Shown: positions 8,386 through 28,622 of the stretch, in pieces
How positions within the stretch are numbered: the first letter of the stretch is position 1
How the letters are laid out: each line of letters opens with the position of its first letter
Virus record (IMG/VR): IMGVR_UViG_3300025769_000183
Location: 1-50,468 of that record
Length of the DNA stretch: 50,468 bases
DNA from: a virus
Reading direction: 5' to 3' (one strand)
Notes under the pieces: generated by a model
The model's database searches: none
What the model was told of the DNA's origin: nothing
Seen by the model: only the letters and a program-made list of their open reading frames with translations
Program-made: the position numbers and the translations under genes

Positions 8386-8417
8386 CTTTTTTTTTAATTC
8401 AATTAAATACTACTAAA

Positions 8418-9200: not shown

Positions 9201-9230
9201 GTTACTACTACCTAGAAAGTTAATGTAGTG

Positions 9231-9258
9231 AGGGGCGGGAAACCGCCCCTTTCTTTTT
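9231..9258 (+). terminator. Perfect intrinsic terminator
   Basis: AGGGGCGG and CCGCCCCT form an 8-bp perfect stem closed by a GAAA tetraloop and followed by TTCTTTTT. Confidence 0.9.
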
Positions 9259-9260
9259 GG

Positions 9261-9268
9261 TATATTTG
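9261..9268 (+). promoter_or_regulatory. -7 promoter element
   Basis: TATATTTG starts right after the terminator, 21 nt before the ATG at 9290. It probably drives the head-tail/tail operon. Confidence 0.6.
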
Positions 9269-9289
9269 TAGGTATCTAAAAGTAATAAA

Positions 9290-10027: not shown

Positions 10028-10854
10028 TGGCTAGAAATTACGTAAACTTAGAGCAGGTAGTTAACGACTTCATTATCACCCTAGATGGTGATGACTTTGT
10101 GGCCAATGCTACAGATACGCTGATCCGTACGTTTGCACTTCGTGGCATTCGTGAAATGGGTTTTGATTTATCTCAAAAGCTGCGTTCGTTAAAAATGAAA
10201 GTAAACACCGATAATAATACGGTAGAGCTACCAGACGATTACGTAGACTTGGTTAAGATTGGTGTGATTGGAGCAGATGGGCTGGTGTATGTTTTTGGTG
10301 AAAACCGAAATATGCATATTGCTCAAAAGTATAAGGTTACCTCCGGCAGCGACTTGCTTGCAGCCAATGCTATAGATTCTGACTCTGACGGGGTTTTTGA
10401 CAGAGTAGATGTAACAGAGAGCGGTCAAGAATATAACGCTCTTAGAGGATACGATTCTTATGTGTTCAGAAATTACTTGTACGAAAACAGTGCGGGTCAG
10501 TTGTATGGACTTGGCGGGGGACAGTATAGCGGTGAGTACCGTATCAATCTAGATCAGAGTCGTATTGAGCTTAGTATCAATGACCACGTAAACACAGTGG
10601 TTATGGAGTATGTATGTGATGAAGCTAGAAGCAGTAACCCTACCGTGCATGTTTTTATGGAAGAAGCGTTGCGTGCGTATATTTACTACAAGCTTATTCA
10701 GCACAAGGCAAGCGTGCCTATGAACGAGAAAATGCGTGCACGCACGGAATACTATAACGAACGCAGGCTAGCTAATTCTAGACTAAAAAGGTTTAACAAA
10801 GAAGAAGCACTCAAGGTTATTCGCAAGAATTCTAAGCAGTCTCCTAAATTATGA
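10027..10854 (+). CDS. Tail tubular A/adaptor-like protein
   Basis: 275 residues. The N-terminal half contains 'DTLIRTFALRGIREMGFDL' and 'VELPDDYVDLVKIGV', the L-P-x-D-Y-x-D/E pattern seen in podovirus adaptor (gp11-like) proteins. The C-terminal part is helical ('FMEEALRAYIYYKLI') and then very basic. Position directly before a very large tail protein matches the T7-like order adaptor then nozzle. The role at the portal-tail junction is inferred. Confidence 0.68.
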   Translation: MARNYVNLEQVVNDFIITLDGDDFVANATDTLIRTFALRGIREMGFDLSQKLRSLKMKVNTDNNTVELPDDYVDLVKIGVIGADGLVYVFGENRNMHIAQKYKVTSGSDLLAANAIDSDSDGVFDRVDVTESGQEYNALRGYDSYVFRNYLYENSAGQLYGLGGGQYSGEYRINLDQSRIELSINDHVNTVVMEYVCDEARSSNPTVHVFMEEALRAYIYYKLIQHKASVPMNEKMRARTEYYNERRLANSRLKRFNKEEALKVIRKNSKQSPKL

Positions 10855-13800
10855 TAATCAAGAACGTACCACAATACCTCAACAAAGCTTCGGACGAGAA
10901 ACTTCTCAAGCCGATAGAGATGTTGGATGCAGAGAACGTGCAGGTTTCATCTGACGATGACGGCAATGCTGGTATCGTTAAGACTATAAAGGGGAATGCT
11001 CATGTTGAGCAGAACTCTTCTGACGAAGTGTACTTTACTCCGGCAAGCCTTAAGGTTATCGGATCTGTCGCTATACCCAAGAAGCAGCAGGTAGTTTATT
11101 TTGCAAAAGCAGAGGCTAATCTTACAAACATAGACCACATTTATGTTTACGATGTAGACTTGAATAAGTATAAAATACTATACCGTGGTAACCAGCTAGG
11201 TTTTAACATTGACTCTTTTGTTGAGTCTAGTGTTGTGTTTAATGGTGACGACGAGGCGATCGTGTATTTTACAGACGGGGTGGGCGAACCCAAAAAGATG
11301 AATGTTGATCGTCTTCTAGCTAATCGTTCTGACATATGGAAGGATGCTGATGGTATTAACTACTACACTGACACAGATAGAGATGAGTTCTTTGCTGTCT
11401 GTAAAACCCCACCGCTAACCCCAATCACGTTTGAGTATACTACAGACACTGCTGTCCAAAGTAACAATGTCACAGACAAAACATTTCAGTTTGCATACCA
11501 ATACATCTATAAAGATGGAGAGGTAAGTGCTGTATCTACGTATTCTAAAATTGCAATTAATCCTAATACATTCGGCACTGGTGTTGTAGAGCCGGAGTTT
11601 GAGAGAGAGAATAACAAGATTGTACTGTCCTACCAGAACGGTGGATCGGAAGTTGAGTCTATTCGATTCCTTGCTCGTCTTGGTGGGACTACAGTCTTTT
11701 ATAAAATCGGAGAAGTAAACAATGGTACTGGGGCTAACCCCACCTTTGACTTTACTAATGATGGGATGTTCCCGGCTGTTTCGACAGCAGAGATAGATAA
11801 GGTGTATGATAATGTACCGCTAAAGGCAAACGCGCAGAGCATATCTGGAAATAGGCTAGTATATGGTGATTACACAGAGGGATACGACAATGTGGCAATT
11901 AACGTAGAGTCTTCTATCACATATAAAGACGTAGAGAATACCGGAACCATTAATGCTACACTACAATCCATCTCACTAGGAAACGGACCTGCTATCATTA
12001 TTGACGGTACAAACATGGCAGCTAGTTACGGTCAAGGTGCTATCATTAGATTGAAGGTTACATTATCCGGTTCTAGCGGCTCATTTAGAATCAGTAGAGA
12101 CTCCCCGTCATATTTATTTAGCGAGGATTATGTTGTCGGTTCGGACAACGGAAACTACGGATTAGGTCAGTACACTGGTAATCCATCAACCAATAACTAT
12201 GTAGACATTCCTTATAATACAGACAAGGTTCTCAGTGCTACTATCATAGCAGGTTCTGTTATGACGCGTGACGAGATCCTCGACGAGATAGAGACTCAGT
12301 TTGCGGCAACATCAAACGCTGTTTACGATTACACAAACAACGGTGTTAATTACAATGCCACTGGTGTTGTAACCTCTGTTGGTTCTGGTACACAGTCTTA
12401 TTCTGTAGGAGATCCAGTAGAGGTTGGATTAGACTTCCCGGAGATTGAGCTAGCCTTTACTGCTGATTCAGCATACACTGTTACAAACAAAAGAAAAATA
12501 GATATAGAGTTTGATGTACTTAAAGCAAAGGTTCATTATAACTCCGGTATATCAAAGCGCTTAGTGCAAATTGACGGTCATCCACTAAACGATACCAGAA
12601 CCACAGCTGCTAGTTACCTCGGGGTTGCTAACTTTAGATACATATCCACGACTAATGTGACTTTAGCCGTAGATGTCAAGCGTTCTCTAGAGGCAGGTCT
12701 TTCTTCGTTTAAGACAAGCGCAATGCATAATTTTGGTATTGTGTATTATGATGCTAAGGGCCGGGCTTCTTTTGTACAGAAAATTGACGGTGTTTTTGTT
12801 GGGGGCTACACCGATTCCAACCGAAGCACAAGCCTAGGCAGGGTTCAGATAAACTTAAAGATCAAACACAATCCACCTTCTTGGGCAAAGAAGTATCAGA
12901 TTGTATATGGGGGCAATGAAACTTATTCAAAGTTTCTCCAGTACGGGGTTGCCGGTGCTCACTACATTTCAGACCAAGACAGTATATACTTAGACTTGTT
13001 CCCTCTAGAAGGAAAGAATAATTCTTACTCGAAAGACAAAGGTGCAAACCTAGATTATACCTATCAAGACGGAGACATGCTTCGCATTATTTCGTTCCAT
13101 GATTCCTCACAGAATCGTGTATATGTTGATGACCAGATATACAACGTCCTTGGCAAAGAGTTGGTGACCGACGCTAGCGAGGTAACTCCAAGTCGTGCGT
13201 CTACATATGTTGTGATTAGAGATGAAGATTATTCCTCTAAAACGTACAGCAACTTTAACCTAACAAAAGTTAAGGCGGGTAGTGACGACTGGGGTCAGCG
13301 TGTTATGGTAGAGATAGTATCGCCTAACACCGTCAACAACGACACAGTATATTATGAGATAGGTGAAGTATACGATATTACTAGTGGCGCTCATGTTGGA
13401 GATATAACTGACGGCGGATATCCAGTAGTGCAGCTTACTGATGGCGATATTTACTTTAAGCCTCGCGAAGTGCTGGTTGCTCCTTTTGATTCTAGCAGTT
13501 CTGAATATGACGAAGATGATTATTCTAACTATGAATACGAAACTTTCTACGTGGAGTCTTCTAGTGTCAGCGACTACTTCGACTCAGAGGTTACTTCTCG
13601 AGGGCGTCCTCACGCTATCAATGAAGATGCAAAGCAGGTTCGTAGACGATCTTCTGTTACGTACTCAGATCCGTACATAGCGGACAGTGCTGTTTTAAGC
13701 CTCTCCAGCTTTAACCCAGCTACTGCTAACTTTAGCGACTTTGAGATTCGTCACGGAAAGATTGACAAGCTTGTTGACCAGACCGATAGACTTTATGTTT

Positions 13801-14945
13801 TCCAGGAGCACAAGGTAGGTATTGTAGGTGTAAACAGAAATATACTAGAGACCCTTACAGACCAGAACGTTGTGGTTTCTAATGTAGTATTTAGTACTCC
13901 AAATTATTATGCTGGAGACTTTGGCTCTAGCGGTTATCCTGCTGCTGTGGTAGAGCGGTTTGGTATGATGTATTTCGTGGATGTAAAAGCGCAGCGAGTG
14001 CTTCGCATCTCTCGTGACGGCATCACGCCTATTAGCGACCCGAATATGGATTCGTTCTTTGATAAGAAGTTTTCTTCATATTTAACTGAAAGCGGTAAGA
14101 CAGAGCTTGATATAGTTGCTGGTTATGATCCAGACAACTCAGAGTATGTGTTAACTAGTAAAGACCGTGGAAGCTACACTGGATTCACCATTGGGTACAG
14201 TCACAACAAGAGAGTGTTCACTTCTTTCTATTCTTTTAAACCAGACTTTTACACCCACATAAATGACAGATTCTTTTCTTTCAAAGTCGTTAGCGTTAGC
14301 GGTACGCAACAGTACATGTGGGAACATGGTGCTGGCTCAACATACGGCAATTTCTATGGCACAGACTACGACGCAAAGATTTCAATCATTGCAAACGCCA
14401 ATCCGTCCATGGTTAAAGCTTTCCAAGCATTATCACTAGAGGGTGATTCCGTGTGGTCTGCTGTGGTGTCTACCTCTAATCAAACCACCAGTATTGCTAC
14501 TGGGGATTTTGATGAAAGAGAGCGAGGTTACTACGCTGCTATACCTAGAGATACTAGCGCCTCTACTGCTAATTACATAACGATAGGTATTGTAGACGAC
14601 GTTACCGGAACAGCGGTAACCTTTGACAACAAGATTAATAGAATGCCTATACCTTTAGGTGCGGCATTGTATAAGGTTGACGGTAGCTCACTGACTAATC
14701 TTAATGCTACGGTGTCTAGTATTGATAGCTCTAAAAAGCTAACCACCAGTACTGCGCTTACTTCTTCTGAAGAGGGTAAGACTATTGTGGCTAAGCTTTC
14801 GGCTAAAGACGAAGGAGATGTCCTTAGAGATTACTACGCTAAGATTGAACTTACTAACTCTGTACATAACAAGAAGTCTGAGCTGTACGCTGTAAACACA
14901 GTGTTTGTAGATAGCCCTATGCACTCGGCGCTTAGTCAGAGATAA
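10851..14945 (+). CDS. Large tail nozzle/tubular B-like protein
   Basis: 1364 residues, almost entirely beta-rich, overlapping the preceding gene by 4 bases. The N-terminus ('LLKPIEMLDAENVQVSSDDDG' region, about 18-40) and the C-terminal third ('VDQTDRLYVFQEHKVGIV', 'VERFGMMYFVDVKAQRVLRISRDG', about residues 975-1060) resemble propeller-type segments of podovirus tail nozzle proteins. It is about twice the length of T7 gp12, suggesting extra fibre-dock or depolymerase-like insertions. No enzymatic motif was identified. Confidence 0.7.
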   Translation: MIIKNVPQYLNKASDEKLLKPIEMLDAENVQVSSDDDGNAGIVKTIKGNAHVEQNSSDEVYFTPASLKVIGSVAIPKKQQVVYFAKAEANLTNIDHIYVYDVDLNKYKILYRGNQLGFNIDSFVESSVVFNGDDEAIVYFTDGVGEPKKMNVDRLLANRSDIWKDADGINYYTDTDRDEFFAVCKTPPLTPITFEYTTDTAVQSNNVTDKTFQFAYQYIYKDGEVSAVSTYSKIAINPNTFGTGVVEPEFERENNKIVLSYQNGGSEVESIRFLARLGGTTVFYKIGEVNNGTGANPTFDFTNDGMFPAVSTAEIDKVYDNVPLKANAQSISGNRLVYGDYTEGYDNVAINVESSITYKDVENTGTINATLQSISLGNGPAIIIDGTNMAASYGQGAIIRLKVTLSGSSGSFRISRDSPSYLFSEDYVVGSDNGNYGLGQYTGNPSTNNYVDIPYNTDKVLSATIIAGSVMTRDEILDEIETQFAATSNAVYDYTNNGVNYNATGVVTSVGSGTQSYSVGDPVEVGLDFPEIELAFTADSAYTVTNKRKIDIEFDVLKAKVHYNSGISKRLVQIDGHPLNDTRTTAASYLGVANFRYISTTNVTLAVDVKRSLEAGLSSFKTSAMHNFGIVYYDAKGRASFVQKIDGVFVGGYTDSNRSTSLGRVQINLKIKHNPPSWAKKYQIVYGGNETYSKFLQYGVAGAHYISDQDSIYLDLFPLEGKNNSYSKDKGANLDYTYQDGDMLRIISFHDSSQNRVYVDDQIYNVLGKELVTDASEVTPSRASTYVVIRDEDYSSKTYSNFNLTKVKAGSDDWGQRVMVEIVSPNTVNNDTVYYEIGEVYDITSGAHVGDITDGGYPVVQLTDGDIYFKPREVLVAPFDSSSSEYDEDDYSNYEYETFYVESSSVSDYFDSEVTSRGRPHAINEDAKQVRRRSSVTYSDPYIADSAVLSLSSFNPATANFSDFEIRHGKIDKLVDQTDRLYVFQEHKVGIVGVNRNILETLTDQNVVVSNVVFSTPNYYAGDFGSSGYPAAVVERFGMMYFVDVKAQRVLRISRDGITPISDPNMDSFFDKKFSSYLTESGKTELDIVAGYDPDNSEYVLTSKDRGSYTGFTIGYSHNKRVFTSFYSFKPDFYTHINDRFFSFKVVSVSGTQQYMWEHGAGSTYGNFYGTDYDAKISIIANANPSMVKAFQALSLEGDSVWSAVVSTSNQTTSIATGDFDERERGYYAAIPRDTSASTANYITIGIVDDVTGTAVTFDNKINRMPIPLGAALYKVDGSSLTNLNATVSSIDSSKKLTTSTALTSSEEGKTIVAKLSAKDEGDVLRDYYAKIELTNSVHNKKSELYAVNTVFVDSPMHSALSQR

Positions 14946-14949
14946 TTAT

Positions 14950-14957
14950 TAAATTTG
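14950..14957 (+). promoter_or_regulatory. -7 promoter element
   Basis: TAAATTTG lies 17 nt before the ATG at 14975 and may give the internal-protein genes their own start. Confidence 0.5.
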
Positions 14958-14974
14958 TAAAATAGTATACTATT

Positions 14975-15781
14975 ATGATAGATCCAGTAACGGGAATGCT
15001 TATAGTCCAAGGGGTTACAGCCGGAGCGCAATATCTCTCTGGACGTAAGGAGGCTAAAAAAGCAGAGGCAAGAGAAGAGGAGATTCGTTCTGCGGGTATT
15101 CCTAAAATGGAAACCCCACAAGAATACTTTGATCTCTACATGAAGGCCAAAGAAAACAAAGGGGCTCAGCTTGCTACAGCGCAGGCTCAGCAAGGTATGG
15201 CTGATACCGCTGCTGCTTTGCAGGCCGGTGGTTCGCGTGCGTTAATCGGTGGTCTATCAGCGGCTCAGCGTAGAACAGACACAACAATTGCAGGTATTGG
15301 AGCACAATCTCAGCAACAAGAACTGTCTGCCCTTGAAGGTTTGGCTGGCGCTCAGATGCGCACCGGCATGATGAACACTCAGATGGCTGGCCAGGAATAC
15401 TTTAATGATTTGCAGGGAGCTCAGATGGCTTATCAGTCTGGAAGACAGATGCAGGCTAGCGCTATTAATAACTTCGCGCAGGCAGGGACTGCGGCTATGG
15501 GTGCTTACAGTGATGCTGATTACATGAAGAAATACGGGGATAGTGGCGTACTTAAGTTCTTCGGGAAACAAGGGATGAAGACTCCGGGTGAGTTTAGTCA
15601 CGATGAGAATCCTATCGATCTTGTACGCGATGGTCAGAAAATTGGAGAGGCTACCGGTGGAGAATATATATTTAATCCAGAGCAGTCTAAGAAAATGAAA
15701 GCACTTGCTGGTAAAGAGAAGTCTCCACTAGCAAAATACGTTGTAGGGTTACTTAATAAATTTGATAAGAAAGCAGGATGA
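14975..15781 (+). CDS. Internal virion/ejection-type protein, gp14-like
   Basis: 268 residues. The first ~170 are Ala/Gln/Gly-rich helices ('QYLSGRKEAKKAEAREEEIR', 'GGLSAAQRRTDTTIAG'), the composition of T7 gp14-like internal proteins. The C-terminal part has 'GEATGGEYIFNPEQ' (about residues 224-237), a motif found in many tail- or ejection-associated phage proteins. It is the first of three consecutive genes occupying the T7 gp14-gp15-gp16 position. Its stop overlaps the next start (ATGAG). Confidence 0.65.
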   Translation: MIDPVTGMLIVQGVTAGAQYLSGRKEAKKAEAREEEIRSAGIPKMETPQEYFDLYMKAKENKGAQLATAQAQQGMADTAAALQAGGSRALIGGLSAAQRRTDTTIAGIGAQSQQQELSALEGLAGAQMRTGMMNTQMAGQEYFNDLQGAQMAYQSGRQMQASAINNFAQAGTAAMGAYSDADYMKKYGDSGVLKFFGKQGMKTPGEFSHDENPIDLVRDGQKIGEATGGEYIFNPEQSKKMKALAGKEKSPLAKYVVGLLNKFDKKAG

Positions 15782-17157
15782 GTTTAATTTCAAAACCACT
15801 AGACTACAGTTCTGGAGCTACTCAAGCTGCTATCCAAGGCATTAGAGGTCAGCTTCAGATGGCGGCAATGGGCGCTGAAGAAGATCGTAGAGAGCGTAAG
15901 CGCGCTGAAGCGCAAGCAGCCTCCTTTGAGAAAAGCATGTCTGCTGCTGAAGGGTCGGTAAATTTCTTACCACCAAAAGCTCAGCAAGTATTCTCCGCCT
16001 ACCATGACGGTTACAAGCAAGCCTTGGATGCTTATGAAGAAAACCCATCTCAAGAAAACCTAAACAGTATCAACAGAATTGTTGGTGCTGCAAACACATA
16101 CTTGAGTCAATACGAGGGATTGCATAACGCAGACAAAAGCACTTTGCTAACCGGCATGTCCCAGCCAAACAAGTTTGGTATATCAACAGAGACAATGATG
16201 GGTGAGTTCGCTATGCGGCATGGTAACGATTCTGCATATAGCGAGGTTCGTTATGACCCTACTGTTGGTGATGTAGTTGTTAGCGGTGGCGGCATGGTTG
16301 GTCTTCGTGCTTCACAAGACCCTATGTTCAATCCGGACAATGCAATGATATTCCCTTCTAAGGCATCCATACCTAGAATAACCTCTGCTGAAGATTACGG
16401 TGGTAGATATGAGTCTTTATATTACAATCGACCAAGAGGGGAATTTGATAAAACCCTTCGCAATAGAATTGCTACGCAAGAAGAACTTCAGTTCTCAGCG
16501 GCAGCGTCATTAGCTGCTATGGATTACGGTAGCGATCCTCAAGACTTGAGTATAGGTATTGAGAACATCATGTCTGACCCAGAAGAAATGAAGCGAGCTA
16601 CAGATTTATATGTAGATAATGCGTGGAGGCAAGCAAACATTGCTCATCAAAGAAGAAGAGAGCAAGAAAGCACTGGTCTAGACTACAATGGATCGGATGC
16701 AGTGACCTTTACTACAGAGGACTACGACTATACCGCAGGTCAGATGACCACAACAAAAATGTCAGCAGATATTCCTACCTTTGATAAACCAATAAAGGTG
16801 TTGATTGAGGCTGATCCGGGTAACGAAAATACCCCTACTTATCAAAGAGTTGTGCTAGGCGCAGCACAGCTCCCAGATGACGAGGGGATCGTTATAAAAG
16901 AAAATGTCGGAACTACATATTATCAAGATCCTAACTCTGGAGAGGTAAGTAATACCCCTCAGCCAGGCTGGGCAGAGATGACTCGTTATGAGAATAGAAG
17001 TAGAGTAATCAAACCTATTGGTATAGATGGGCGTAAAGAATACGCCGCCTATATGAATGCACTTGAAAAACAAAATGCGTTAAACCAAGAGGCTTCTTTA
17101 CGGGTGATTAGCACAGAGCAAAGTGCGCTACCCGGACCACCGATGCCTCCACAATAA
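15778..17157 (+). CDS. Internal virion/ejection-type protein, gp15-like
   Basis: 459 residues. It has a helical, charged N-terminus (about 1-110), a mixed middle, and a Pro-rich C-terminus ('ALPGPPMPPQ'). No enzymatic domain was seen. Position between a gp14-like and a giant gp16-like gene suggests it forms part of the ejectosome that crosses the envelope ahead of the DNA. That role is inferred from order and from its 4-base overlap with the upstream gene. Confidence 0.6.
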   Translation: MSLISKPLDYSSGATQAAIQGIRGQLQMAAMGAEEDRRERKRAEAQAASFEKSMSAAEGSVNFLPPKAQQVFSAYHDGYKQALDAYEENPSQENLNSINRIVGAANTYLSQYEGLHNADKSTLLTGMSQPNKFGISTETMMGEFAMRHGNDSAYSEVRYDPTVGDVVVSGGGMVGLRASQDPMFNPDNAMIFPSKASIPRITSAEDYGGRYESLYYNRPRGEFDKTLRNRIATQEELQFSAAASLAAMDYGSDPQDLSIGIENIMSDPEEMKRATDLYVDNAWRQANIAHQRRREQESTGLDYNGSDAVTFTTEDYDYTAGQMTTTKMSADIPTFDKPIKVLIEADPGNENTPTYQRVVLGAAQLPDDEGIVIKENVGTTYYQDPNSGEVSNTPQPGWAEMTRYENRSRVIKPIGIDGRKEYAAYMNALEKQNALNQEASLRVISTEQSALPGPPMPPQ

Positions 17158-17165
17158 CATACTAG

Positions 17166-20100
17166 ATGAACGACGAGTTACTGCAATTATTGCAGAGTGG
17201 GTTTGATAGTGGATACAGCGAGGACCGCGTATTTGCTATGGCTATTAAGAATGGGTTTTCCTACAACGAAGTGACGTTGGCCCTAGAGTCTATTAGTAAA
17301 AAAAAAGACCAAACTCAACCTCCTCCCCAGGTTACAGACACTATGGTTTCTGGCTTGGAAGACTCTGGGTTGGATTTATCATACGAGACAAAGGCTGACG
17401 GAACGCAGTTTCCAGACGACTTATTAACTCAGCGATTTACTCAAAGCTCTGCTCCAAATAATAAACCGCAGGAAACTAACGATAGAGAATACCGTCATGC
17501 ACTAATCGCTGATGATTGGTTCGCTGATAGAGATGATTGGTTCGGTCGTACCGCTAGATGGTACAATAACTTTATGGCTATGGCTCTTGCGACCGGGGCT
17601 CAAGAAGATCTCCTAGACGAAAGCCCAGAGAACAATGTTGATGCTGCAGAGCGACTGGCTTATTACAACGAAATACAAAACAAATACAGAGACGAGCGAG
17701 GGTATCCCGGATGGGGAGATCTTGGTTCTGCTAGCGGATGGTGGAAGATGGTTTTACCGGAAGTAGCAGGTAACGTTTTTTCATCTATTGCTGGTGGTTT
17801 TGCAAGCGGTAGTGCGCAAGAAACTGTATTAAAAACTATTGCAGAGGGTCAAGCTATAGGAACTAGCGCTGGTCTTGCTGGTGGTCCTCTTGCTGAGTTT
17901 ACGGTTCCAATAGGTTACGTAGCTGGTACAGCATACGGTGCTGCTACCGGTACTTCTTTTGCTGGTTCATACGCCCTTGAAATGTCAGAGGCTATCGCCA
18001 AGGCTCTTGAAGACCTGCATATAGATACAGAAGACCCGGAAGAAATTGCACAGACCTTTGAGTCTGAGGAGGGTTTGAAAAAGATTAGAGAAGCAATGGA
18101 GCGCCGTAAGGTACGCGCTGCTACTATTGCATCTGTAGATGCTCTTCTCGCTGGAGGTGGTGGTAAAACCGCGCAGGCTATTAGAAAAGCTGGAGGTAGT
18201 AAAACAAAAGCAGTGGTCGCTGAGATATTAGTGGATGCCGCTGGAGGTGGTGCTGGTGAAACTGCAGGTCAGATCGTTGAAGAGGGTAAAGTTACCTCGG
18301 GTCTTGATATTGTTATGGAGGCTCTTGGCGGCCCAGTAATGGCCACGCCTGCTGCTGTAACCCGTGGCGCTAGCGCTAGGTATACAGAGCTGATGACTCC
18401 TACTGCAGAGAGAAACTATATCCAATGGGCTCAGCAGAACAAAGAAAACGGCAGTAGTATTACTACCGCGGCTTCACTTATGGGTGACGGCCAGGTTCAG
18501 ATAGTAGAGAAAAAGATACAAGAAACAAAAGAGCAGCTTAAGAATGCTAAGGGCAAAGAGGCAAAGCAAACTTTGCGTGATGACCTTAAGCAACTTAGAG
18601 AGAAGAAATACGAGATGCTCAATGCAAACATTAGAGCATTCGAGGAACTCAATCAAGACCAACAAGTAGAGTTACTCGAGAAGAGTCAAAAGATATTTGC
18701 ACTCCAGCAGGAGATGCAGGAGACAACAGACACAAAGCTTAAGTCAAGATTGGGTGCAGAGATCCTCACTATGATGACGGGCTTTAATACGTTTGAAGTA
18801 GAGGCTGTAGCCCCAGCGGTAGAAACTACTACCATGGATCAAATGCAGGCTCCGGTTATGCCAACAACAGATGCTAAGCCTATCGTCGAAGGGCGCTCTG
18901 AGGTTGACGCCTTAACTATCAACACACTAGAAGATGGAACTGAGGTTATTGCTCAGCGTCCTATCGATGGAACAGAGGTGCAAGGCGCTCTCCGCTTGGA
19001 GGGTAACCCAGAAAACCCTACACTGGTAGTTGAGACTGAAACAGAAAAAGTAGAACTCGGGCAGCGTAGTGAGGTAGACCCGTCTACAATCAGAATGTTT
19101 GAGCCGGCTATTGCTGAGCGTGAGACACTAGCGGTGCAGGAAGATGGATCGTTTGTTTATCAACGTGATGACAACCCTAACGTACCGCAAGGAACAAAGC
19201 TTACTATTGATGAAGAGGCTGGCGTTAGCGCTATCTCTGTATTTGGCGAAGGCCAATTCAATCCACTACAAACACCAGAGGCAATTGCTGGTGACGCAGA
19301 CAGAGGTGTCCGTGTACAAATGAAAAACGAAAGCGGTGAGGTTGTTGAGCTCTACGGCCAAGACGCATTGGATGCTGCATATCAAATACTGCTGGCAGCC
19401 AAAGAGAACCCTGCAGATAGAGCAAAAGTTAACCAAGTAATTGAGAACAATGAAGCAGCAAGACAAGCCCTTGAACAAGCCGAACGTGAGTTCGCAGAAG
19501 AAGGATCTGTACCAGAGACTGATGGACCTACCACAGAGCAAGCGCAACCAAGTGTTGGCCCAGCTCCTCGCCCAGCCGAAAGAGTAGCCCCGGGTGCTGC
19601 TGAAGAGGCAGCGTCAGAAACGGAGAAGACTAGAGAGGCCGTTAACGAACTAGACGATTCCGTTGAGGTTCGTGGTGGCGCAGTAAATCCAAGACGCCAC
19701 GGTGTAACCCCACGTATTGCAAGCATGCTTAACAGCGCGTATAATGCATTCGTTGGTTTATATACAGAAGCTCCTCGTGTTATTATCCATAAAACAAAAG
19801 AGTCGTTGCAGCGTGCTACCGGAGGCCCGTACGAAGCTTTCTATGAACATGAAAGAGAGGGTGGCCCAGCTATACACGTTATGTATAATGCGACTACCGC
19901 TGCTATACGTGAAGAGTTTGCGCACGCAGGACTTCGTCACGTCATGGTACTCCAGCCTGCTGTTCGTACAAAATTGTTTAACGACCTGCAAGGCATTAAC
20001 AATGAAACACTTCGCAATAAAATCAATGAGCGCTTCCGTAAGTACGTAGCGTTCTATATGGAGCGTGGTGCTTCTGAGGCAAAGGCTGTTGCCATCGCTG

Positions 20101-23100
20101 AAGAGGAGGCTATTGTCGGTATCATTGCAGACATCAACGACAACCTTAATCAGATTGACGCTAGTGCTAAGGCTAAGACTAGACGTGTTATCAACAAGAT
20201 GCTCGGCACTAAGCTTGGCAAGTTCCACCTAAAGAGCAACAACGATTTAGTCAATATGATCGAGCGTGTTACGCAGGGATACAGAACTGGTAATAAGATA
20301 TACATATTAGACATTGTTAGAAACGCACAGCCAAATCCAAATCCGAACCCGGCAGAGGCAATGCGTACTGAGTCTGACCCTACATCAGATGACCGTGCTC
20401 GATTGATTGACTTTGCGTTTGACCGTGACCTCGATTTGTCCGACATGAAGAAGTTGGGTAGCGGTGCTTTTGGTTATGCCTTCATGGTTAAAGATAAGGA
20501 TGGGCGAGACGTTGTCCTTAAGCAGGCACAGAGCGTTGACGAGATGTACATTGCTTCAAACTACTTTGATAGATTTGGTGGTAAGCTACCGGGCCTTGCT
20601 CAGTACTACGATGTAGCAATTGCTTCCGATGTAGATGGAGTGCCGTTTATATACCAACTCAAAGAGTATTTACCGACATCAATGACAGACGTTGTTGGTA
20701 GAGATGGCGTCACTTCTCAGCTTAACATTGGCGCTGTAATCGGAGACCTTGAGAACATTGCTGAATCATTAAACAGAAACTTCCCTTACTCCGGTGCTTT
20801 AGGTCCTAGTAGAGGGATTAGTAAAATCCAGCATCAAGCCATGATCGAAAACATGACCGTGGCGAAACAACTTTACCAAGCTCTTAAGGCTGCTAGACTT
20901 GAGTCAATCAATGATTCAGAGAGAACTGCTGGTTCTGGTTTTGTAGAGTTGAGACTGTCTAATCTAAAGGCAGTGTTTAGTCCTATACTAAATTCAAGAG
21001 AGCTTAACATAGAAATGAACACATACAAATACTTGTATGAACATTTGTTTGGTTTAGACTACTACGCTGACGACCGTTTGGTTTTAAAGCCGGATGTCAC
21101 TAGAGCTGAGTTATCTGCCTCACTTTTGCGTAAGCATGTAGTAAAGAGTTTAGTTACTGATATCGCTGACGGTTTGTTTAATTGGGCGTCTGTTGGTACT
21201 GCTACTTTAGAGTCGCTTCAAACAAAGGCTAGGCTCTTGGGTGAGGCCAGTCCTAGCAGCTTAGAGCGTTACGAGATAAGACAAGAATCTTTAGAAGATC
21301 TAGAGCAAAACCACCCCGGTTCGCTAGAGAAGATATCTAAATTGTACGACAACAATGAAATGATATTCACTCTAATAGACAACGCTATCCGTGCTGCTTT
21401 TGACGTCGAAGGCTTTACCGCTGAAGAAGTGATAGATGTTTCGATGGCTTATCTCGATAACCAGGTGGCAATGAGTAAGAGTCTTGGGCAGTTGGGCTTG
21501 AGATCAGCAGACCTTCACCCTGGCAACGTAGGGTTCGCAGCTATCAACTCCGAGAATAAGATTGAAAGATTCTCTTCTGTCAAGTTCTTTGATATCATGG
21601 GCCCGATATATGAGGGCGTAGAGCGAGGAGGGAATTTCCCGGTTACAGAGATTGATGCGTTTATAGCCAGGGATTTCAAGGAGTTTGTTAATGAAGGTAA
21701 CAGAAGACTTAAAGATGCTGCCGCTGATATGGATTACTACACCAGTTTCGGTGAGGAAGACTTTGCGGCACGCACATATTACAATCACATAGGTGTTGGT
21801 GTTATACCTCCTATCACCATCAAGGCTATACTAGATGCAGAACCGGAAATGTCTATAGGCGAAAGCAACCTGGGGTATGATGGTACTGCACATCCTAAAT
21901 CTAGAGAAGCTCTTAAGCACATAGCAAAGACCATTGGTCTTGTTAAACTGATGCATAAGAATCCAGACTACAAGTTAATGAGGGTTCTGCAAAACGAGTT
22001 GTTTAAAGTAGATGGTGCTCTGGGTGTTACCAAAGTAGACACTCAACAGCGTGACGACATATACTTCTTTAACGAGCAGGTACAGACAGCTTTCCATGAT
22101 GTGCTCCAAGAGTATCAGCGTGAGGCTATGCTTGATCCTAGTGAGCGTTCAACTGTAGACAGTGGCAACCGTGCTCGTATTGAAGAGTACCTTCTTGCCG
22201 AGAGTATTGAATTTAAGGCGATCGAAGAGATTGGCTCTGGTGCTTTTGGCAAAGCATTTATTGTTAACACCCCAGACGGAAACGTCGTTGTTAAAAGAAC
22301 CGCAAGCAAGAGAGAGACCTACATTAGTTCAAGATATATCAAGCGCCATAACGGTAAGCTTCCTGGGCTTGTTAAGTATCACGCGATGAGGGCGATGTTC
22401 CTGGACGCCGCAAACGATTGGATGGGCAGCGGTGTGATATTTGTCACAAAAGATTTATCAAACACAACTGTTGACAAGTACGGTTCTAGTTATGATATTT
22501 CGGTAGGCGATGTCTTCGGACAGATTACACTGGCTGTTAATAGTGTATACGATAAGTCAACAGAGCTGCTAGGTAATGTAGATCCTGGACCAGGTGTGCG
22601 TAACGGTATAGATTTACATACCGCGCAAAATACCGCGCTGGCTTTAATGCAGGTCTATCAAGACCCATACAAGGTTGCAGAGATTAATAAGTATATTGAA
22701 GATGAGCTTCCGGGAATCATGCTTCGTGGAGACAATTCCCCTAACACTGTAACTCAAGAAGTTATTGACGGGTCTATGACCCTTGAAGATATCATTGGTT
22801 ATGCTGTTAACTTCTGGCAGATGGCAGGGTCGTTTACTTTATTAGGCGCCGCCAATCCAGATATACACAGCGCTAATCTAGGTTTCTCAAAAGAAGAGAA
22901 AACATTAAATGGATACCCCTTACTTGAAGCATTTGATGTTGACGGGTTTGAGAACAACATGATGCTCAACAGCCGCCAGGCACAAGAGGACCATCAAACT
23001 TTCATGAATGAGATAACAGACGAGACAAAAGCTGCATTCATTCCTGGGTATCAAGACAAGCAATACTTCTTCTTTGGGCAACCGTTTTCTCAGTTGAATC

Positions 23101-26100
23101 CAGTGGGGCTTGTTGGTGAGGAGGCTGCTAAGTTTAGAGAAGAGAACAAAGATGAGATAGTAATGGAGACCGCTATCCCAGCTCAAGTTCCAATCACCAC
23201 CATGCAGGACGTCATGTACGATCAAGAAGAGGCTGAGTACACAGCAGGAGACATCATTGAAGAACTTCGATTGCCTCGAGACGACGAATCTCCTTACAGT
23301 AATAAGGACCCGTATTCAGATATACTTAGACAGTACGATTACGGATACACAATCCCATACCTTGACGGTACAGAATTGTTTAGAGATTTCCGTAGACAAG
23401 AAGACGGAAGCACGGCAGACTTTAGAGCTGGAGAGATAGCGGAACTGCTTACCAAGAACATAGATCAGTATGCTCTTAGTGATATGATTGAAAGGATGAA
23501 TGAGCCTATGTTCCAAGCAACCTATTCAAGTCGATTCAAGGATATCTTTGAGACCAGAGAAAAACAAAGAGCAAGCTTGGTTTCTGCCTTGAAGTCTAAG
23601 CTCGACTACATGGAGAATGGAAACCGCGCTCGACTAGATGACGAGACCGTTGAGTTAGCGGTATCTAAAATCAGCGGCGGCAAGCGCGTGTCTCCTGCTC
23701 GTGCTACATCTGCTGGTTCAGATGTCAAGCTTAACTATGACGGGTCGAGACAAATCTCTATGGACTACACCAGAGAGAACGCTCCAGCTGTATATGTTCG
23801 TGGCGCTTTCGTATTGGGTACACACACAATGATGTCTGACATCAAGGGTACTAAAGCTTTAGATACTAAGAACCCTACAGAGGCTCAACTGAAAAAGGCT
23901 GACGAGATCTACGAGATATTCGTTGAGCGCGCAACCAAGAACCTTATTAGACTTCACGATTCTTTCAGTGAAGATGTGAGAAAATATTCTAAGCTCTGGT
24001 ATGTTGGTGCTAACCTTACCGCTCAAGACATGGGCGCAAGATATGGGTACTCTCAAGAGCAAGCCGCCGGTATCCTAGCGGCTCTGTCTCCGCAGAAAGA
24101 TTGGTATCAGAACATGGCGCTAGCTGAAGCGGTGATGCGCGTGATGCGCAATCAGAAAGATACAGAGTTTTCTAAGGCTATGTATAACAAAGCCCTTGGT
24201 AATACACGTAAGGTAAACAACAAGGTGCTTAGCCAGCAAGACTTTAAGAAAGCGGTAAACGAAAAAGCATACCAAGCTTACCTCAAGAGAAAGGCTGTGT
24301 TGCAGAGCATGATAGGCAAGACTTTAGGCGAGATGAGTCTCGAGGAAAACGGAGCTATGAACGCTGCTATGTTTGTCCGTACATACAACGAGATGTTTGA
24401 GGATCGCAACTACCACGTGGTAAGTCCTATTGGTGAGCGTATTGGTTATGCTAAGAAAGCAGATGGGTCTATGTCCACTATGGCATGGGGTTCTTATGCT
24501 GAGATTTCTTCAGCAACATCTATTGTGTTGAACGGTACTATGTCAAACATCGACAAGCAGGTTGGTGACCAACACAAGGTGCGTTCATTCTTCAACAATA
24601 TCAATAACCCTAACTCTTTGGAGGGTGATGTTACGATTGACACTCACGCTGTTGCGGCTGCAGAGCTACTACCTTTAGCAGGGTCTAGCTCAGAGGTGTT
24701 CCACAACTTCGGCGGTGGTACTGCTGCTATGAAAGTCAAAGCTGGTAGTTCAAACCTCGGCATCAAGGGTGTGTACTTTGCGTATGCAGAGGCATACCGT
24801 AGAGCAGCAGACGAGAAAGGTATACTTGCAAGAGAGATGCAGTCTATCACATGGGAAGCTGTACGTACTTTGTTTACCGCAGGCTTCAAGGCTCAGAAGA
24901 AAAACAAGCAAGAGGTTCGTGCCATCTGGCAAGAGTATAGCAAGGGTAACATTAGCTTTGAAGAAGCTCAAGACCAGGTGTTTGAAAGAGCCGGCGGTGT
25001 GTTCAACCCGGACTGGTATGTAGACAGCGGCGATCGCGCAAGGCTAGATGAAACTAGAGAGAGACGTCACGCTCGCAAGATGTTCCAGAACCTACGACCA
25101 GATGTTCCTTTCGAGGCAGCCGTTCGTGAAGAACTTAAGAGAGACCCTTCTAGATTCTATGAACCTCAAAAGTTTAGCGAGATCAAAGAGCGTCTAGAAG
25201 AGATGAGTATTGAGGAGCTCCTTGCTGAGATGAAAGACGTTGCTATGTTTGACGGAGATAACCCCTCTGTTATCAATGACGCAATGGGTTCTTTAGCCGG
25301 AGGAGACTTCCGTGTTCTAGCAACACTTGAGTACCTCAAGAGACTGCAGCAGCAGGGGCGTACTTCTGAGTACCGTGCTGTTCTGAAAAGGTTCTTTGAA
25401 ACTGGTACAGCTGTCGGTCAATTGTTACGACAGTTCGGTGAAATAAAAGGCCAGACTCCAGAGGGAATGAAAGACCTGGTTGACAGTGTGTACGAAGCAA
25501 ACGGCACTACTCTCTCTGATACAGAGTACGAAGAGATGGGTGCTATTGTTGATGATTTGTTTGATGGTCAGCAAGATGTTCAAGCATTGATCAAAGAGCT
25601 TTCGGAAACCACAGACATGGACCGTGTTGGAGAGATTGAGGGAAGATTAGAGGACGCTAAACGCAGAGTGTCTGAGGCTAACAAACGATTGAATGAATTC
25701 AATAGCAAGTATGCTATGACATGGGGTAAACTAATTGGTTTACTTATCCAAGGTAACCTTCTTACTCCGGTGTCGCAGATGGTCAACGTTACCGCCAACC
25801 TTTCTACGCTACCTATCCTAATGCTAGACAAGACTCTTGGGTATGGCGCTGAGGTTTTGATTAACGGTATCCGCAAGAGCATGGGGAAAGATGTTGACCC
25901 TAGTATAGCATCATTACCACCTTCTATAACTGCAGCAATCTACGCTGGTAAACAGTTTGGTGTTGGTATTAAAGACGCATACAAGAGTGCTATTGGAGAG
26001 ACTGTACCTAACGATAAGTTTGAGTACAACATGCAGCTTCAGCTGGCGCCCATCAAAGCATTCGGTTTGATAATGGCGAACAGCGACAAGCTTCCGGACG

Positions 26101-27794
26101 CTGTGAAGAACGGTACTAAATTAGATCAGATTGATTACCGTGCTAAGAAATTCCTAGAGGCAGTTGGTGGTACACCAGCAAACCTTATGTTCAGACTGCT
26201 GGCGTTTGGTGATGTGCCGTTCTTTAAATTCATGGAGGGATACGAACTATACAGAGTCGGTAAGTCTTTAGGGCTTAGTGGTGATGAGTTAAATAGATTC
26301 TTGAAGTATCCAAATGAAGAGTACAGAAACAAGGCAACACAAGCAGGTCTAAAGGTTACGTTCCAAGAGGATAACCAGTTTGCTACATGGTTGAATAAGG
26401 CTATAACAAGAACCGCTGATTTAATCGGGGAGCGCAGTCGTGTATTAGAGAATGCTTTCCGTGTTGTGGTGCGTATGCACATGCCGTACGTTAAGACTCC
26501 GGCTAACATCCTCGCTCAAAGTATTCAGCTAGCACACCCTGCTATACCTATTGCTACCATTGCTATCAAGAAAGCAGCAAGAGGGAGAGTATCTCAGCGC
26601 GAGCTTGCCGAGTTGTTGTCGAAAGCATTCATGAGCTGGCTGATGTATAAAGCCACACAGCGATTGATGGAAAGCGGATTGATTACTACTCCGGTAGATG
26701 CTGACGTTGCAAGAGAAAGAGATTTGAAATACTCGGTCGCTCCACCCAACTCGATCAACATCACCGGTATCAATAGACTATTGAAAGGTGAAGACCCTAC
26801 ACTTCAAGCGAATGATGTATGGTTTAACTATCAGAAGCTTGGTCTTGGTGGTGCGGTAATGGCAGCCCAGGCAGTAGGCTTGAAGTCCACAATGCGTGAT
26901 GCGCAGATGGAGTCTAGAGTACTTAACCGCTCGGACAACTTCATGGATTACCTTGCAGATTTAACGGGTGTTGTTCCTGGGGTGTTAGGTTCTATGATGA
27001 ACCAGTCTTTCCTTACTGGTATTGACGGTATCATTAAGCTTCTTGCTGACCCAAGCGAGCGCCAGCTCACTAAGTACCTTGAGAACATTTCGCGTTCTGG
27101 TTTCTCTGTGATTCTCCCGAACTCACTCAGCGCATTCTACCGCTCTGGTCGTGAGTATCTTCCGGACTACAGACATCCTAACGCAGACTTCTTCAACGTG
27201 CTTGACAACATCTTGCGTGATAAGACATTCAACTACCTGGGTACTGGCGAGCAGGTCATACCTCGTGTGAATATTTGGGGTGAGTCAATCACGCAAACTC
27301 CAGAGGGTGGTGGCTCATTGATGATCGGTGATGGAGATGAGTACCCTTGGTTGTACAATACCTTCGGTGTATTCAAATCTAGAATCAGTTCTACTGACCC
27401 GGTAAAGGTTGAGATATACAACTTGTTCAAAGAGACCGGTGACACTGATGTGATCCCTGGATATCCTATGCCGGTGGGTAAGTTAAAGATTCAACTCACC
27501 AAGAGTGAATCAGCTTACTATGGATTGAATGTAAACGAACCGCACTACATTGACGTGATGCCTAAAGATGCGCATGCTATGATGAAGATGTTCGGTACAT
27601 ACAGATACAATGAGATTAAGAAGTTTGTTTCAAGCGACTCTTACGAGCGAATGACAAACGCACAAAAGATTAGTGCTTTGAAATCTATTTACAATAGAAA
27701 TTCTAGAGGCACATACGATGGCGGTATCTATCCATGGAAAGCATACCGTGATGGAATGGTTAGAAATTATTTTTTAGATTTAGGAGATGAGTAA
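17166..27794 (+). CDS. Giant polyvalent internal virion protein with two kinase-like domains
   Basis: 3542 residues in one frame, over a fifth of the genome. Layout read from sequence: Gly/Ala-rich, membrane-prone segment (~197-280); coiled coil (~444-519); Pro/Glu linker (~784-825); region with EEFAH at 916-920, like a zincin HExxH with its first His replaced; kinase-fold domain 1 (Gly loop 'LGSGAFG' at 1097, Lys 1119, 'DLHPGN' at 1449, 'FDIMG' at ~1475); kinase-fold domain 2 ('IGSGAFG' at 1689, Lys 1710, 'DIHSAN' at 1899, 'FDVDG' at ~1923); a domain with 'ALSPQKDW' (2306) and 'IDTHA' (2491) resembling HhH-GPD glycosylases; and a C-terminal part (~2850-3540) like the LPD38-type domain of large polyvalent proteins. 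[GD][ND]RAR[LI] motifs sit at about 1075, 1667, 2152 and 2622. It is probably ejected into the host with the DNA. Both kinase cores look intact, but their targets cannot be predicted. Confidence 0.8.
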   Translation: MNDELLQLLQSGFDSGYSEDRVFAMAIKNGFSYNEVTLALESISKKKDQTQPPPQVTDTMVSGLEDSGLDLSYETKADGTQFPDDLLTQRFTQSSAPNNKPQETNDREYRHALIADDWFADRDDWFGRTARWYNNFMAMALATGAQEDLLDESPENNVDAAERLAYYNEIQNKYRDERGYPGWGDLGSASGWWKMVLPEVAGNVFSSIAGGFASGSAQETVLKTIAEGQAIGTSAGLAGGPLAEFTVPIGYVAGTAYGAATGTSFAGSYALEMSEAIAKALEDLHIDTEDPEEIAQTFESEEGLKKIREAMERRKVRAATIASVDALLAGGGGKTAQAIRKAGGSKTKAVVAEILVDAAGGGAGETAGQIVEEGKVTSGLDIVMEALGGPVMATPAAVTRGASARYTELMTPTAERNYIQWAQQNKENGSSITTAASLMGDGQVQIVEKKIQETKEQLKNAKGKEAKQTLRDDLKQLREKKYEMLNANIRAFEELNQDQQVELLEKSQKIFALQQEMQETTDTKLKSRLGAEILTMMTGFNTFEVEAVAPAVETTTMDQMQAPVMPTTDAKPIVEGRSEVDALTINTLEDGTEVIAQRPIDGTEVQGALRLEGNPENPTLVVETETEKVELGQRSEVDPSTIRMFEPAIAERETLAVQEDGSFVYQRDDNPNVPQGTKLTIDEEAGVSAISVFGEGQFNPLQTPEAIAGDADRGVRVQMKNESGEVVELYGQDALDAAYQILLAAKENPADRAKVNQVIENNEAARQALEQAEREFAEEGSVPETDGPTTEQAQPSVGPAPRPAERVAPGAAEEAASETEKTREAVNELDDSVEVRGGAVNPRRHGVTPRIASMLNSAYNAFVGLYTEAPRVIIHKTKESLQRATGGPYEAFYEHEREGGPAIHVMYNATTAAIREEFAHAGLRHVMVLQPAVRTKLFNDLQGINNETLRNKINERFRKYVAFYMERGASEAKAVAIAEEEAIVGIIADINDNLNQIDASAKAKTRRVINKMLGTKLGKFHLKSNNDLVNMIERVTQGYRTGNKIYILDIVRNAQPNPNPNPAEAMRTESDPTSDDRARLIDFAFDRDLDLSDMKKLGSGAFGYAFMVKDKDGRDVVLKQAQSVDEMYIASNYFDRFGGKLPGLAQYYDVAIASDVDGVPFIYQLKEYLPTSMTDVVGRDGVTSQLNIGAVIGDLENIAESLNRNFPYSGALGPSRGISKIQHQAMIENMTVAKQLYQALKAARLESINDSERTAGSGFVELRLSNLKAVFSPILNSRELNIEMNTYKYLYEHLFGLDYYADDRLVLKPDVTRAELSASLLRKHVVKSLVTDIADGLFNWASVGTATLESLQTKARLLGEASPSSLERYEIRQESLEDLEQNHPGSLEKISKLYDNNEMIFTLIDNAIRAAFDVEGFTAEEVIDVSMAYLDNQVAMSKSLGQLGLRSADLHPGNVGFAAINSENKIERFSSVKFFDIMGPIYEGVERGGNFPVTEIDAFIARDFKEFVNEGNRRLKDAAADMDYYTSFGEEDFAARTYYNHIGVGVIPPITIKAILDAEPEMSIGESNLGYDGTAHPKSREALKHIAKTIGLVKLMHKNPDYKLMRVLQNELFKVDGALGVTKVDTQQRDDIYFFNEQVQTAFHDVLQEYQREAMLDPSERSTVDSGNRARIEEYLLAESIEFKAIEEIGSGAFGKAFIVNTPDGNVVVKRTASKRETYISSRYIKRHNGKLPGLVKYHAMRAMFLDAANDWMGSGVIFVTKDLSNTTVDKYGSSYDISVGDVFGQITLAVNSVYDKSTELLGNVDPGPGVRNGIDLHTAQNTALALMQVYQDPYKVAEINKYIEDELPGIMLRGDNSPNTVTQEVIDGSMTLEDIIGYAVNFWQMAGSFTLLGAANPDIHSANLGFSKEEKTLNGYPLLEAFDVDGFENNMMLNSRQAQEDHQTFMNEITDETKAAFIPGYQDKQYFFFGQPFSQLNPVGLVGEEAAKFREENKDEIVMETAIPAQVPITTMQDVMYDQEEAEYTAGDIIEELRLPRDDESPYSNKDPYSDILRQYDYGYTIPYLDGTELFRDFRRQEDGSTADFRAGEIAELLTKNIDQYALSDMIERMNEPMFQATYSSRFKDIFETREKQRASLVSALKSKLDYMENGNRARLDDETVELAVSKISGGKRVSPARATSAGSDVKLNYDGSRQISMDYTRENAPAVYVRGAFVLGTHTMMSDIKGTKALDTKNPTEAQLKKADEIYEIFVERATKNLIRLHDSFSEDVRKYSKLWYVGANLTAQDMGARYGYSQEQAAGILAALSPQKDWYQNMALAEAVMRVMRNQKDTEFSKAMYNKALGNTRKVNNKVLSQQDFKKAVNEKAYQAYLKRKAVLQSMIGKTLGEMSLEENGAMNAAMFVRTYNEMFEDRNYHVVSPIGERIGYAKKADGSMSTMAWGSYAEISSATSIVLNGTMSNIDKQVGDQHKVRSFFNNINNPNSLEGDVTIDTHAVAAAELLPLAGSSSEVFHNFGGGTAAMKVKAGSSNLGIKGVYFAYAEAYRRAADEKGILAREMQSITWEAVRTLFTAGFKAQKKNKQEVRAIWQEYSKGNISFEEAQDQVFERAGGVFNPDWYVDSGDRARLDETRERRHARKMFQNLRPDVPFEAAVREELKRDPSRFYEPQKFSEIKERLEEMSIEELLAEMKDVAMFDGDNPSVINDAMGSLAGGDFRVLATLEYLKRLQQQGRTSEYRAVLKRFFETGTAVGQLLRQFGEIKGQTPEGMKDLVDSVYEANGTTLSDTEYEEMGAIVDDLFDGQQDVQALIKELSETTDMDRVGEIEGRLEDAKRRVSEANKRLNEFNSKYAMTWGKLIGLLIQGNLLTPVSQMVNVTANLSTLPILMLDKTLGYGAEVLINGIRKSMGKDVDPSIASLPPSITAAIYAGKQFGVGIKDAYKSAIGETVPNDKFEYNMQLQLAPIKAFGLIMANSDKLPDAVKNGTKLDQIDYRAKKFLEAVGGTPANLMFRLLAFGDVPFFKFMEGYELYRVGKSLGLSGDELNRFLKYPNEEYRNKATQAGLKVTFQEDNQFATWLNKAITRTADLIGERSRVLENAFRVVVRMHMPYVKTPANILAQSIQLAHPAIPIATIAIKKAARGRVSQRELAELLSKAFMSWLMYKATQRLMESGLITTPVDADVARERDLKYSVAPPNSINITGINRLLKGEDPTLQANDVWFNYQKLGLGGAVMAAQAVGLKSTMRDAQMESRVLNRSDNFMDYLADLTGVVPGVLGSMMNQSFLTGIDGIIKLLADPSERQLTKYLENISRSGFSVILPNSLSAFYRSGREYLPDYRHPNADFFNVLDNILRDKTFNYLGTGEQVIPRVNIWGESITQTPEGGGSLMIGDGDEYPWLYNTFGVFKSRISSTDPVKVEIYNLFKETGDTDVIPGYPMPVGKLKIQLTKSESAYYGLNVNEPHYIDVMPKDAHAMMKMFGTYRYNEIKKFVSSDSYERMTNAQKISALKSIYNRNSRGTYDGGIYPWKAYRDGMVRNYFLDLGDE

Positions 27795-28152
27795 TATTAT
27801 TAAAAAGATTCTAGGGGGTGGTGCAAAAGAAACTGTAGATGCGGTAGGTAATATCGTGGATAAGTTTGTTGCTACTCCAGAAGAAAAGGCCGCAGCGAAA
27901 GCTCAGATTGAACAAGAGATTAGTAAGCGTTGGCAGTCAGACATGGCATCTACATCTTGGCTGTCTAAGAATGTACGCCCACTTACACTCATGGTGGTTG
28001 TGGTTTTCCTAGTATTGATGACGTTCTTTGATGGCTTCGGATTGGTAGATGTTAACGGGGCGTGGATCAATCTATGGAACATGCTTAGCGTTACCGTTGT
28101 TGGCGGTTACTTTGCAGTAAGAACAATTGATAAAAGAGGAAACACAAAATGA
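27787..28152 (+). CDS. Holin of the three-transmembrane type
   Basis: 121 residues. The N-terminal ~55 residues are a charged amphipathic helix ('VATPEEKAAAKAQIEQEISK'); then come 'SWLSKNVRPLTLMVVVVFLVLM', a short turn, 'AWINLWNMLSVTVVGGYFAVR' and a basic tail. The 'W-L-S-K-N-V-R-P' before the first helix is the hallmark of the 3TM holin family (GTA_holin_3TM-like). It overlaps the giant protein gene by 8 bases and precedes a DUF5675 gene, forming a lysis cassette. It permeabilises the inner membrane at the end of infection. Confidence 0.8.
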   Translation: MSNIIKKILGGGAKETVDAVGNIVDKFVATPEEKAAAKAQIEQEISKRWQSDMASTSWLSKNVRPLTLMVVVVFLVLMTFFDGFGLVDVNGAWINLWNMLSVTVVGGYFAVRTIDKRGNTK

Positions 28153-28622
28153 AACTACAAGTATTAAGATTCTCTTCGCAAGAAGACAGTACACTAGGGT
28201 TGTTGTTCGATGTAACAGACGGCAACAGAGAGTTCTTAGCATTCACATTAGAAGATGAGCACAGAGAAGAAAAAGTATATGGAGAAACACGAGTCCCTGC
28301 AGGAGAGTATAAAGTCACGCTTAGAACCACCGGTGGATTTCACTCCCGCTATACTAGAAAGTATGGTGGGTTTCATCGTGGCATGCTTTGGGTACGCGAC
28401 GTCCCAAACTTTGAGTACATACTTATTCATACTGGGAATACTGATGACCATACTGCTGGTTGCCTATTAGTAGGCGATCACTCGCAGCAGAATATAACTA
28501 AGGAGGGATTCATTGGTTCATCGGTTGACGCTTACCGGAGAATATATCCGGACCTAGCCGATGCTGCAGAGGATGGTGACTTGACTATCGAGTACGTAGA
28601 CTTCGATATCCCTAATATCTAA
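28149..28622 (+). CDS. DUF5675 family lysis-associated protein
   Basis: 157 residues, matching DUF5675 features: 'FTLEDEHREEKVYGETRVPAG' near residues 36-56, 'RDVPNFEYILIHTGNTDDHT' near 84-103, and 'AGCLLVGD' with a Cys after a His-rich strand, similar in layout to L,D-transpeptidase-like H...GC sites. These proteins sit next to phage holins and are thought to act on peptidoglycan, though activity is not established. It overlaps the holin gene by 4 bases and the convergent GIY-YIG gene by 11. A second hydrophobic frame lies inside it (28255-28470). Confidence 0.78.
   Translation: MKLQVLRFSSQEDSTLGLLFDVTDGNREFLAFTLEDEHREEKVYGETRVPAGEYKVTLRTTGGFHSRYTRKYGGFHRGMLWVRDVPNFEYILIHTGNTDDHTAGCLLVGDHSQQNITKEGFIGSSVDAYRRIYPDLADAAEDGDLTIEYVDFDIPNI
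28255..28470 (+). CDS. Possible embedded membrane ORF inside the DUF5675 gene
   Basis: 71 residues in the +1 frame relative to the DUF5675 gene, starting with ATG and ending with TAG. It has a very charged N-terminus ('MSTEKKKYMEKHESLQES'), then two hydrophobic segments (about residues 31-50 and 52-71) running to the C-terminus. This form resembles small lysis proteins embedded in other lysis genes. It could also be a by-product of the beta-rich host frame; conservation is needed to decide. Confidence 0.25.
   Translation: MSTEKKKYMEKHESLQESIKSRLEPPVDFTPAILESMVGFIVACFGYATSQTLSTYLFILGILMTILLVAY

Follow-up and report, generated by a model that had tools for sequence, protein, structure and literature searches.

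Described systems and the giant gene

Iyer et al (2017; PMC5512222) predicted particle-borne kinases as part of polyvalent virion proteins in phages of Bacteroidetes and Verrucomicrobia. The family concerned, Kinase-PolyVal (PF18762), consists of protein-kinase-like domains within multidomain giants encoded next to virion genes, with a conserved histidine in the phosphotransfer site. The N4 virion RNA polymerase is an ejected protein of about 3500 residues (PMC12633501), and T7 gp16 is encoded by the last large gene after gp14 and gp15. The kinase T7 gp0.7 (Autographiviridae) is the product of a separate early gene, made post-infection, and has a Gly-rich loop, VIK, PGIP after the helix, a DMHSGN loop and, as the DFG equivalent, ITDPVS. 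In zth2-2, LS06-2018-MD07 and CRP-738, the domain DUF7178 is found in large proteins that are encoded beside structural genes or that contain polyvalent domains, and the accompanying effector in zth2-2 and LS06 is an ADP-ribosyltransferase and/or a methyltransferase, not a kinase.

The window, i.e., the whole 50,468-nt stretch of viral DNA analyzed here, contains an uninterrupted ORF encoding a giant protein of 3542 aa (Table 1). Like Kinase-PolyVal proteins, it is a multidomain giant encoded by a gene of the structural module, with protein-kinase-like domains and a conserved histidine in the phosphotransfer site; unlike them, it has two kinase domains in tandem. The hallmark Glu before strand 2 of Kinase-PolyVal (PMC5512222) was absent, the Gly loop being followed by YAF/KAF, and the hallmark Gln in the final strand of the N-lobe (PMC5512222) was found in domain 1 only (IYQLKEY; IFVTKDL in domain 2). 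PF18762 gave no matches to the window or to ten copies of the kinase domains. Virion-carried kinases have been proposed already for polyvalent proteins (PMC5512222); by sequence comparison, the kinases of the window are unrelated to those. The size of the giant protein resembles that of the N4 enzyme and its gene is placed like that of T7 gp16; in contrast to both, its central cargo consists of two kinases and DUF7178, and no lysozyme or polymerase domain was found in it.

Full-length versions of the giant protein were present in three related viral contigs (L002, L003 and L004), with 96-100% identity to the window in the kinase region, and a more distant relative of 3324 aa was found in L011/L013. 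Comparison with L003 gave dN/dS values of 0.15 for domain 1 and 0.24 for domain 2, indicating that purifying selection acts on the gene. In the same comparison, the last 912 codons (25053-27791) were identical with zero synonymous changes, whereas 17% of synonymous sites differed in the N-terminal 840 codons; this mosaic pattern suggests recombination within the giant gene. In another contig, L005, the 5' part of the gene consisted of two overlapping frames, 7597-9609 (670 aa) and 9368-17503 (2711 aa), which may represent a real split or a sequencing error. The stretch with both kinase domains was open in L005.

Table 1 Features of the giant gene and its surroundings in the window.
Feature	Residues	Position	Strand	Basis
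Giant protein, encoded at the end of the structural module (T7 gp16 position)	1-3542	17166-27794	+	Intact ORF, relatives, synteny
Gly/Ala-rich helical scaffold domain	161-434	17646-18467	+	phmmer
Metallopeptidase-like segment	830-1070	19653-20375	+	Motif scan
Junction motif DDRARL, ahead of kinase 1	1075-1080	20388-20405	+	Motif scan
Kinase-fold domain 1	1071-1560	20376-21845	+	Homology to domain 2, invariant residues, profile search
Insert of ~180 residues in domain 1	about 1221-1400	20826-21365	+	Alignments
Junction motif GNRARI, ahead of kinase 2	1667-1672	22164-22181	+	Motif scan
Kinase-fold domain 2	1660-2010	22143-23195	+	AlphaFold model, fold searches
Junction motif GNRARL, kinase 2 / DUF7178 part	2152-2157	23619-23636	+	Motif scan
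DUF7178 / phrog_3842 domain	about 2230-2620	23853-25025	+	Pfam, PHROGs
Junction motif GDRARL, after DUF7178	2622-2627	25029-25046	+	Motif scan
C-terminal scaffold	2630-3542	25053-27791	+	76% identical in L011
Upstream structural genes (1364-aa, 268-aa and 459-aa proteins)		10851-17157	+	phmmer matches to phi38:1 gp97, gp99

Two kinase-fold domains in tandem

A sequence-only reading of the window had claimed two domains with a complete set of kinase-fold motifs that arose by duplication, and both parts of this claim held. The motifs were located at exact positions in domains 1 and 2, respectively: the Gly loop (GSGAFG in both, residues 1098-1103 and 1690-1695), the ATP-site lysine (Lys1119, Lys1710), the helix glutamate (Glu1126, Glu1717), the catalytic loop (DLHPGN at 1449-1454, with D1449 and N1454; DIHSAN at 1899-1904, with D1899 and N1904) and the DFG-like motif (FDIMG at 1475-1479, with D1476; FDVDG at 1923-1927, with D1924). 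GKLPGL was also common to both domains (1139-1144 and 1730-1735). Aligned with each other, the domains were 30% identical over 172 aa with an E-value of 3e-17 by BLASTP and 7e-20 by phmmer, and from these alignments they are homologous and the product of a duplication. An alignment was built from ten copies, covering both domains in several lineages with identities down to 24%. The columns invariant in all copies included G31, G33, G36, K51, E58, D240, H242, N245, D265 and G268, and the fixed positions of the blocks D-x-H-x-x-N-x-G-F and F-D-x-x-G. Because the catalytic residues are invariant across copies this divergent, the motif set goes beyond chance. The insert in domain 1 of the window was absent from L011.

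The kinase fold, also put forward in the sequence-only reading, gained support from profile search, structure prediction and fold searches. Single-sequence searches of Pfam and the PDB returned no kinases at a useful E-value, and only the multi-copy profile succeeded: run against all PDB sequences, it matched almost exclusively protein kinases (NEK1, E 0.016; PKR, E 0.019), in register on the Gly loop and the lysine. The AlphaFold model of residues 1660-1990 (domain 2) had a pLDDT of 72.9 and a pTM of 0.78, and its topology was strand-strand-strand-helix-strand-strand, with helices and the strands of the catalytic loop coming next. The model stopped 63 residues past the DFG-like motif and its end was below pLDDT 50, in the stretch that would show whether the C-terminal kinase subdomain is lost, as in Kinase-PolyVal. 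With Foldseek, the solved structures at E < 0.001 were kinases or kinase-fold enzymes such as PKR and PknB, with Bacillus subtilis YtaA at rank 1, at low TM-scores of 0.2-0.3 for solved structures and up to 0.58 for one viral model. The nearest viral models included T7-like phage protein kinases and uncharacterized phage proteins. VIA-align placed PKR first (Z 8.9 over 153 residues) and also returned APH(4) and LicA (Z about 8), with Z values of only 8-9. Given the low TM-scores and moderate Z values, no single score decided the assignment; profile, residues and model agreed, and this agreement supports a predicted protein-kinase-like fold for domain 2. The model of the whole tandem had a pLDDT of 40 and was set aside, so that domain 1 is assigned to the same superfamily through its homology to domain 2 only, an assignment that the alignments support.

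Pfam kinase families gave no matches to the ten copies at E-values up to 10. Classification as eukaryotic-type Ser/Thr/Tyr kinases (PF00069/PF07714) failed, with no Pfam match and with the HRD histidine absent from the catalytic-loop contexts RSADLHPGN (domain 1) and ANPDIHSAN (domain 2). Comparisons with Escherichia coli SrkA, HipA and UbiB gave no significant matches. The parallel drawn earlier with T7 gp0.7 stood at the level of motifs (DxHxGN, with the Gly-rich loop, VIK and post-helix PGIP of gp0.7 as further resemblances) and not at that of profiles: the alignment was in register, but its E-value of 0.015 did not stand above controls of 0.021 and 0.15, a DUF7178 control scoring about as well, and homology to gp0.7 is not claimed. 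No relatives of the kinase region were found by tblastn in phage and plasmid records or in a bacterial genome scan, and the profile found no kinases in eight related or DUF7178-bearing phage records. Among the records tested, only this clade carried the kinases.

Structural position, cargo and junctions of the giant protein

The closest matches to the terminase and portal came from Flavobacterium elemoviruses, Cellulophaga phages and a spring-water podovirus, and the virus is probably a podovirus of a Bacteroidota host. Upstream of the giant gene, proteins of 368, 454, 281, 245, 275, 1364 and 268 aa corresponded to gp92, 93, 94, 95, 96, 97 and 99 of the Cellulophaga phage phi38:1 in the same order, and nearly all of these structural genes were also matched in the elemovirus and ctfjg026. 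The 459-aa protein occupied the position of phi38:1 gp100 and T7 gp15. The overall order of tubular proteins, gp14-like protein, gp15-like protein and giant protein resembles T7 gp12-gp14-gp15-gp16, and T7 gp14, gp15 and gp16 gave no direct sequence match. In all compared structural modules the last gene encoded a giant, of 1691-3859 residues. In phi40:1, which is nearly identical to phi38:1 in the structural module, gp97-gp101 were annotated as structural from MS/MS data; the giant last gene, gp101, is the counterpart of the window giant by position, and the two proteins had no detectable sequence similarity. The gp16-type position read from the sequence was thus borne out by one-to-one upstream matches and by a counterpart detected by MS/MS, and the giant protein is predicted, with good positional support, to be present in the virion. 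Sequence similarity among the giants was limited to the helical N-terminal segment (residues 161-434), common to the ctfjg026 giant with a phmmer conditional E-value of 5e-6 under composition bias. No C-terminal homology to the elemovirus and ctfjg026 giants was detected, and no family scored above the Pfam cut-off in the C-terminal scaffold. Directly 3' of the giant gene (27787-28622, +) a holin-like protein (phrog_3427) was encoded, followed by a DUF5675 protein.

DUF7178 was detected at E-values of 1e-22 (Pfam) and 1e-24 (PHROGs), with 32-40% identity to the zth2-2, CRP-738 and LS06 proteins. Its partners elsewhere are LPD22 and ART-PolyVal (zth2-2) or ART-PolyVal and a methyltransferase (LS06), and in CRP-738 the DUF7178 protein is encoded directly after the portal. 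A DNA-glycosylase-like fold was considered for DUF7178 and not borne out, the profile finding no credible solved relatives. As in polyvalent proteins, several putative effectors (two kinases and DUF7178) are combined in one large protein among virion genes; no curated polyvalent domains were found in the 3542-aa chain, in which only DUF7178 passed the Pfam cut-off. Since the counterpart proteins of related phages are without kinases and DUF7178 is found beside ART-PolyVal or methyltransferase domains elsewhere, the scaffold most likely carries exchangeable effectors, here two kinases and DUF7178. In place of kinases, the elemovirus giant (L039:719-11803, 3694 aa) carried DUF3293 (residues 1323-1392). 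In Maribacter phage Panino, the protein in the corresponding position (L042:28228-33717, -) is annotated as a tRNA methyltransferase, and one of its segments, near residue 765, looks by eye like an ART-PolyVal end.

Between the window and L011, the kinase part was 42% identical, compared to about 75-77% for the scaffold and DUF7178 flanks, with catalytic residues unchanged despite this divergence. The pattern fits effectors under host-driven change; alternatively, replacement by a related allele would account for the 42% identity. We also considered whether modules had been swapped exactly at the RAR motifs and did not retain this reading, as identity between the window and L011 drops gradually over the first boundary; faster divergence would explain the pattern at least as well.

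The motif [GD][ND]RAR[LI] occurred four times in the giant protein compared to 0.003 expected in shuffled sequences, with one site ahead of each kinase and one on either side of the DUF7178 part. All four sites were kept in L011 as DRAR/NRAR. The codons differ among them, hence the motif is conserved at the protein level. Our guess is that it serves as a processing site or hinge. The metallopeptidase-like segment of the giant protein has EEFAH at residues 916-920, where zincins have HExxH, and is probably degenerate; EEFAH was kept in L011 and L003, and the segment resembles by eye the IHEFTH segment of LS06. Elsewhere in the window, a stand-alone ArdC-like anti-restriction gene (37815-38732, -) encodes ArdcN (E 2e-23) and MPTase-PolyVal zincin (E 4e-28) domains, adjoined by the gene for a stand-alone RadC-like JAB protein (37059-37706, -; E 1e-32). 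Peptidases of the MPTase-PolyVal type have been proposed as processors of polyvalent proteins (PMC5512222), and the ArdC-like protein might do the same, in trans, to the giant protein. A tentative and rather doubtful extension is that the motif-bounded modules are cut after ejection, perhaps by this separate MPTase-PolyVal protein, freeing two different kinases that would act before phage gene expression and diversify quickly under host pressure.

Competing interpretations and biological meaning

We interpret the giant protein, with a probability of roughly 0.6, as a virion-packaged ejection protein that delivers two kinases to a host probably belonging to the Bacteroidota. A T7 gp16-type job would fall to the scaffold (residues 1-~1070 and ~2630-3542), and the protein would be packed in the head and exit along with the DNA, carrying as its middle cargo the two tandem kinase-fold domains followed by DUF7178. 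We infer that the kinases would reach the cytoplasm, bind host-cell ATP and be catalytically active, phosphorylating host proteins or defense factors before phage gene expression in the service of counter-defense or takeover.

The two domains could instead be pseudokinases, in which the fold is kept as a structural or binding module without phosphotransfer. Their embedding in a giant structural protein, the sizeable and variable insert within domain 1 and the lack of a match to any catalytic kinase family would agree with this, but all catalytic residues are invariant in ten copies in which most other positions have changed, and we consider loss of catalysis unlikely. A further question is the substrate, which could be a nucleotide, sugar, antibiotic or signaling nucleotide and not a protein. 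The DxHxxN catalytic loop, typical of aminoglycoside-type kinases, points in this direction, as do YtaA at Foldseek rank 1 and APH(4) and LicA among the VIA matches. However, the N-lobe sequence aligns best with eukaryotic-type protein kinases, PKR tops the VIA list, and D-x-H-x-G-N is found in T7 gp0.7 as well, which is known to be a protein kinase; small-molecule substrates thus appear improbable.

It is also conceivable, at a still lower probability, that the kinases act in the producing cell, controlling assembly through phage structural or host proteins, with delivery being incidental. In favor of this, the gene belongs to the structural module, so that its protein is presumably produced late and abundantly. 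Yet the relatives with the same assembly genes have no kinases, so assembly does not need them, and a target on the host side would fit the rapid divergence of the kinase part. Delivery of two kinases by an ejected virion protein remains our preferred interpretation.

Since T7 gp0.7 and comparable phage kinases are synthesized only once early transcription has occurred, they come too late to counter defenses that act on the entering DNA. If our interpretation is true, particle-borne kinases could alter host proteins at time zero. A host-driven arms race would fit the combination of rapidly diverging kinases, unchanging catalytic residues and a conserved surrounding scaffold. The recurrence of the junction motif suggests a rule for the division of giant ejected proteins into functional units.
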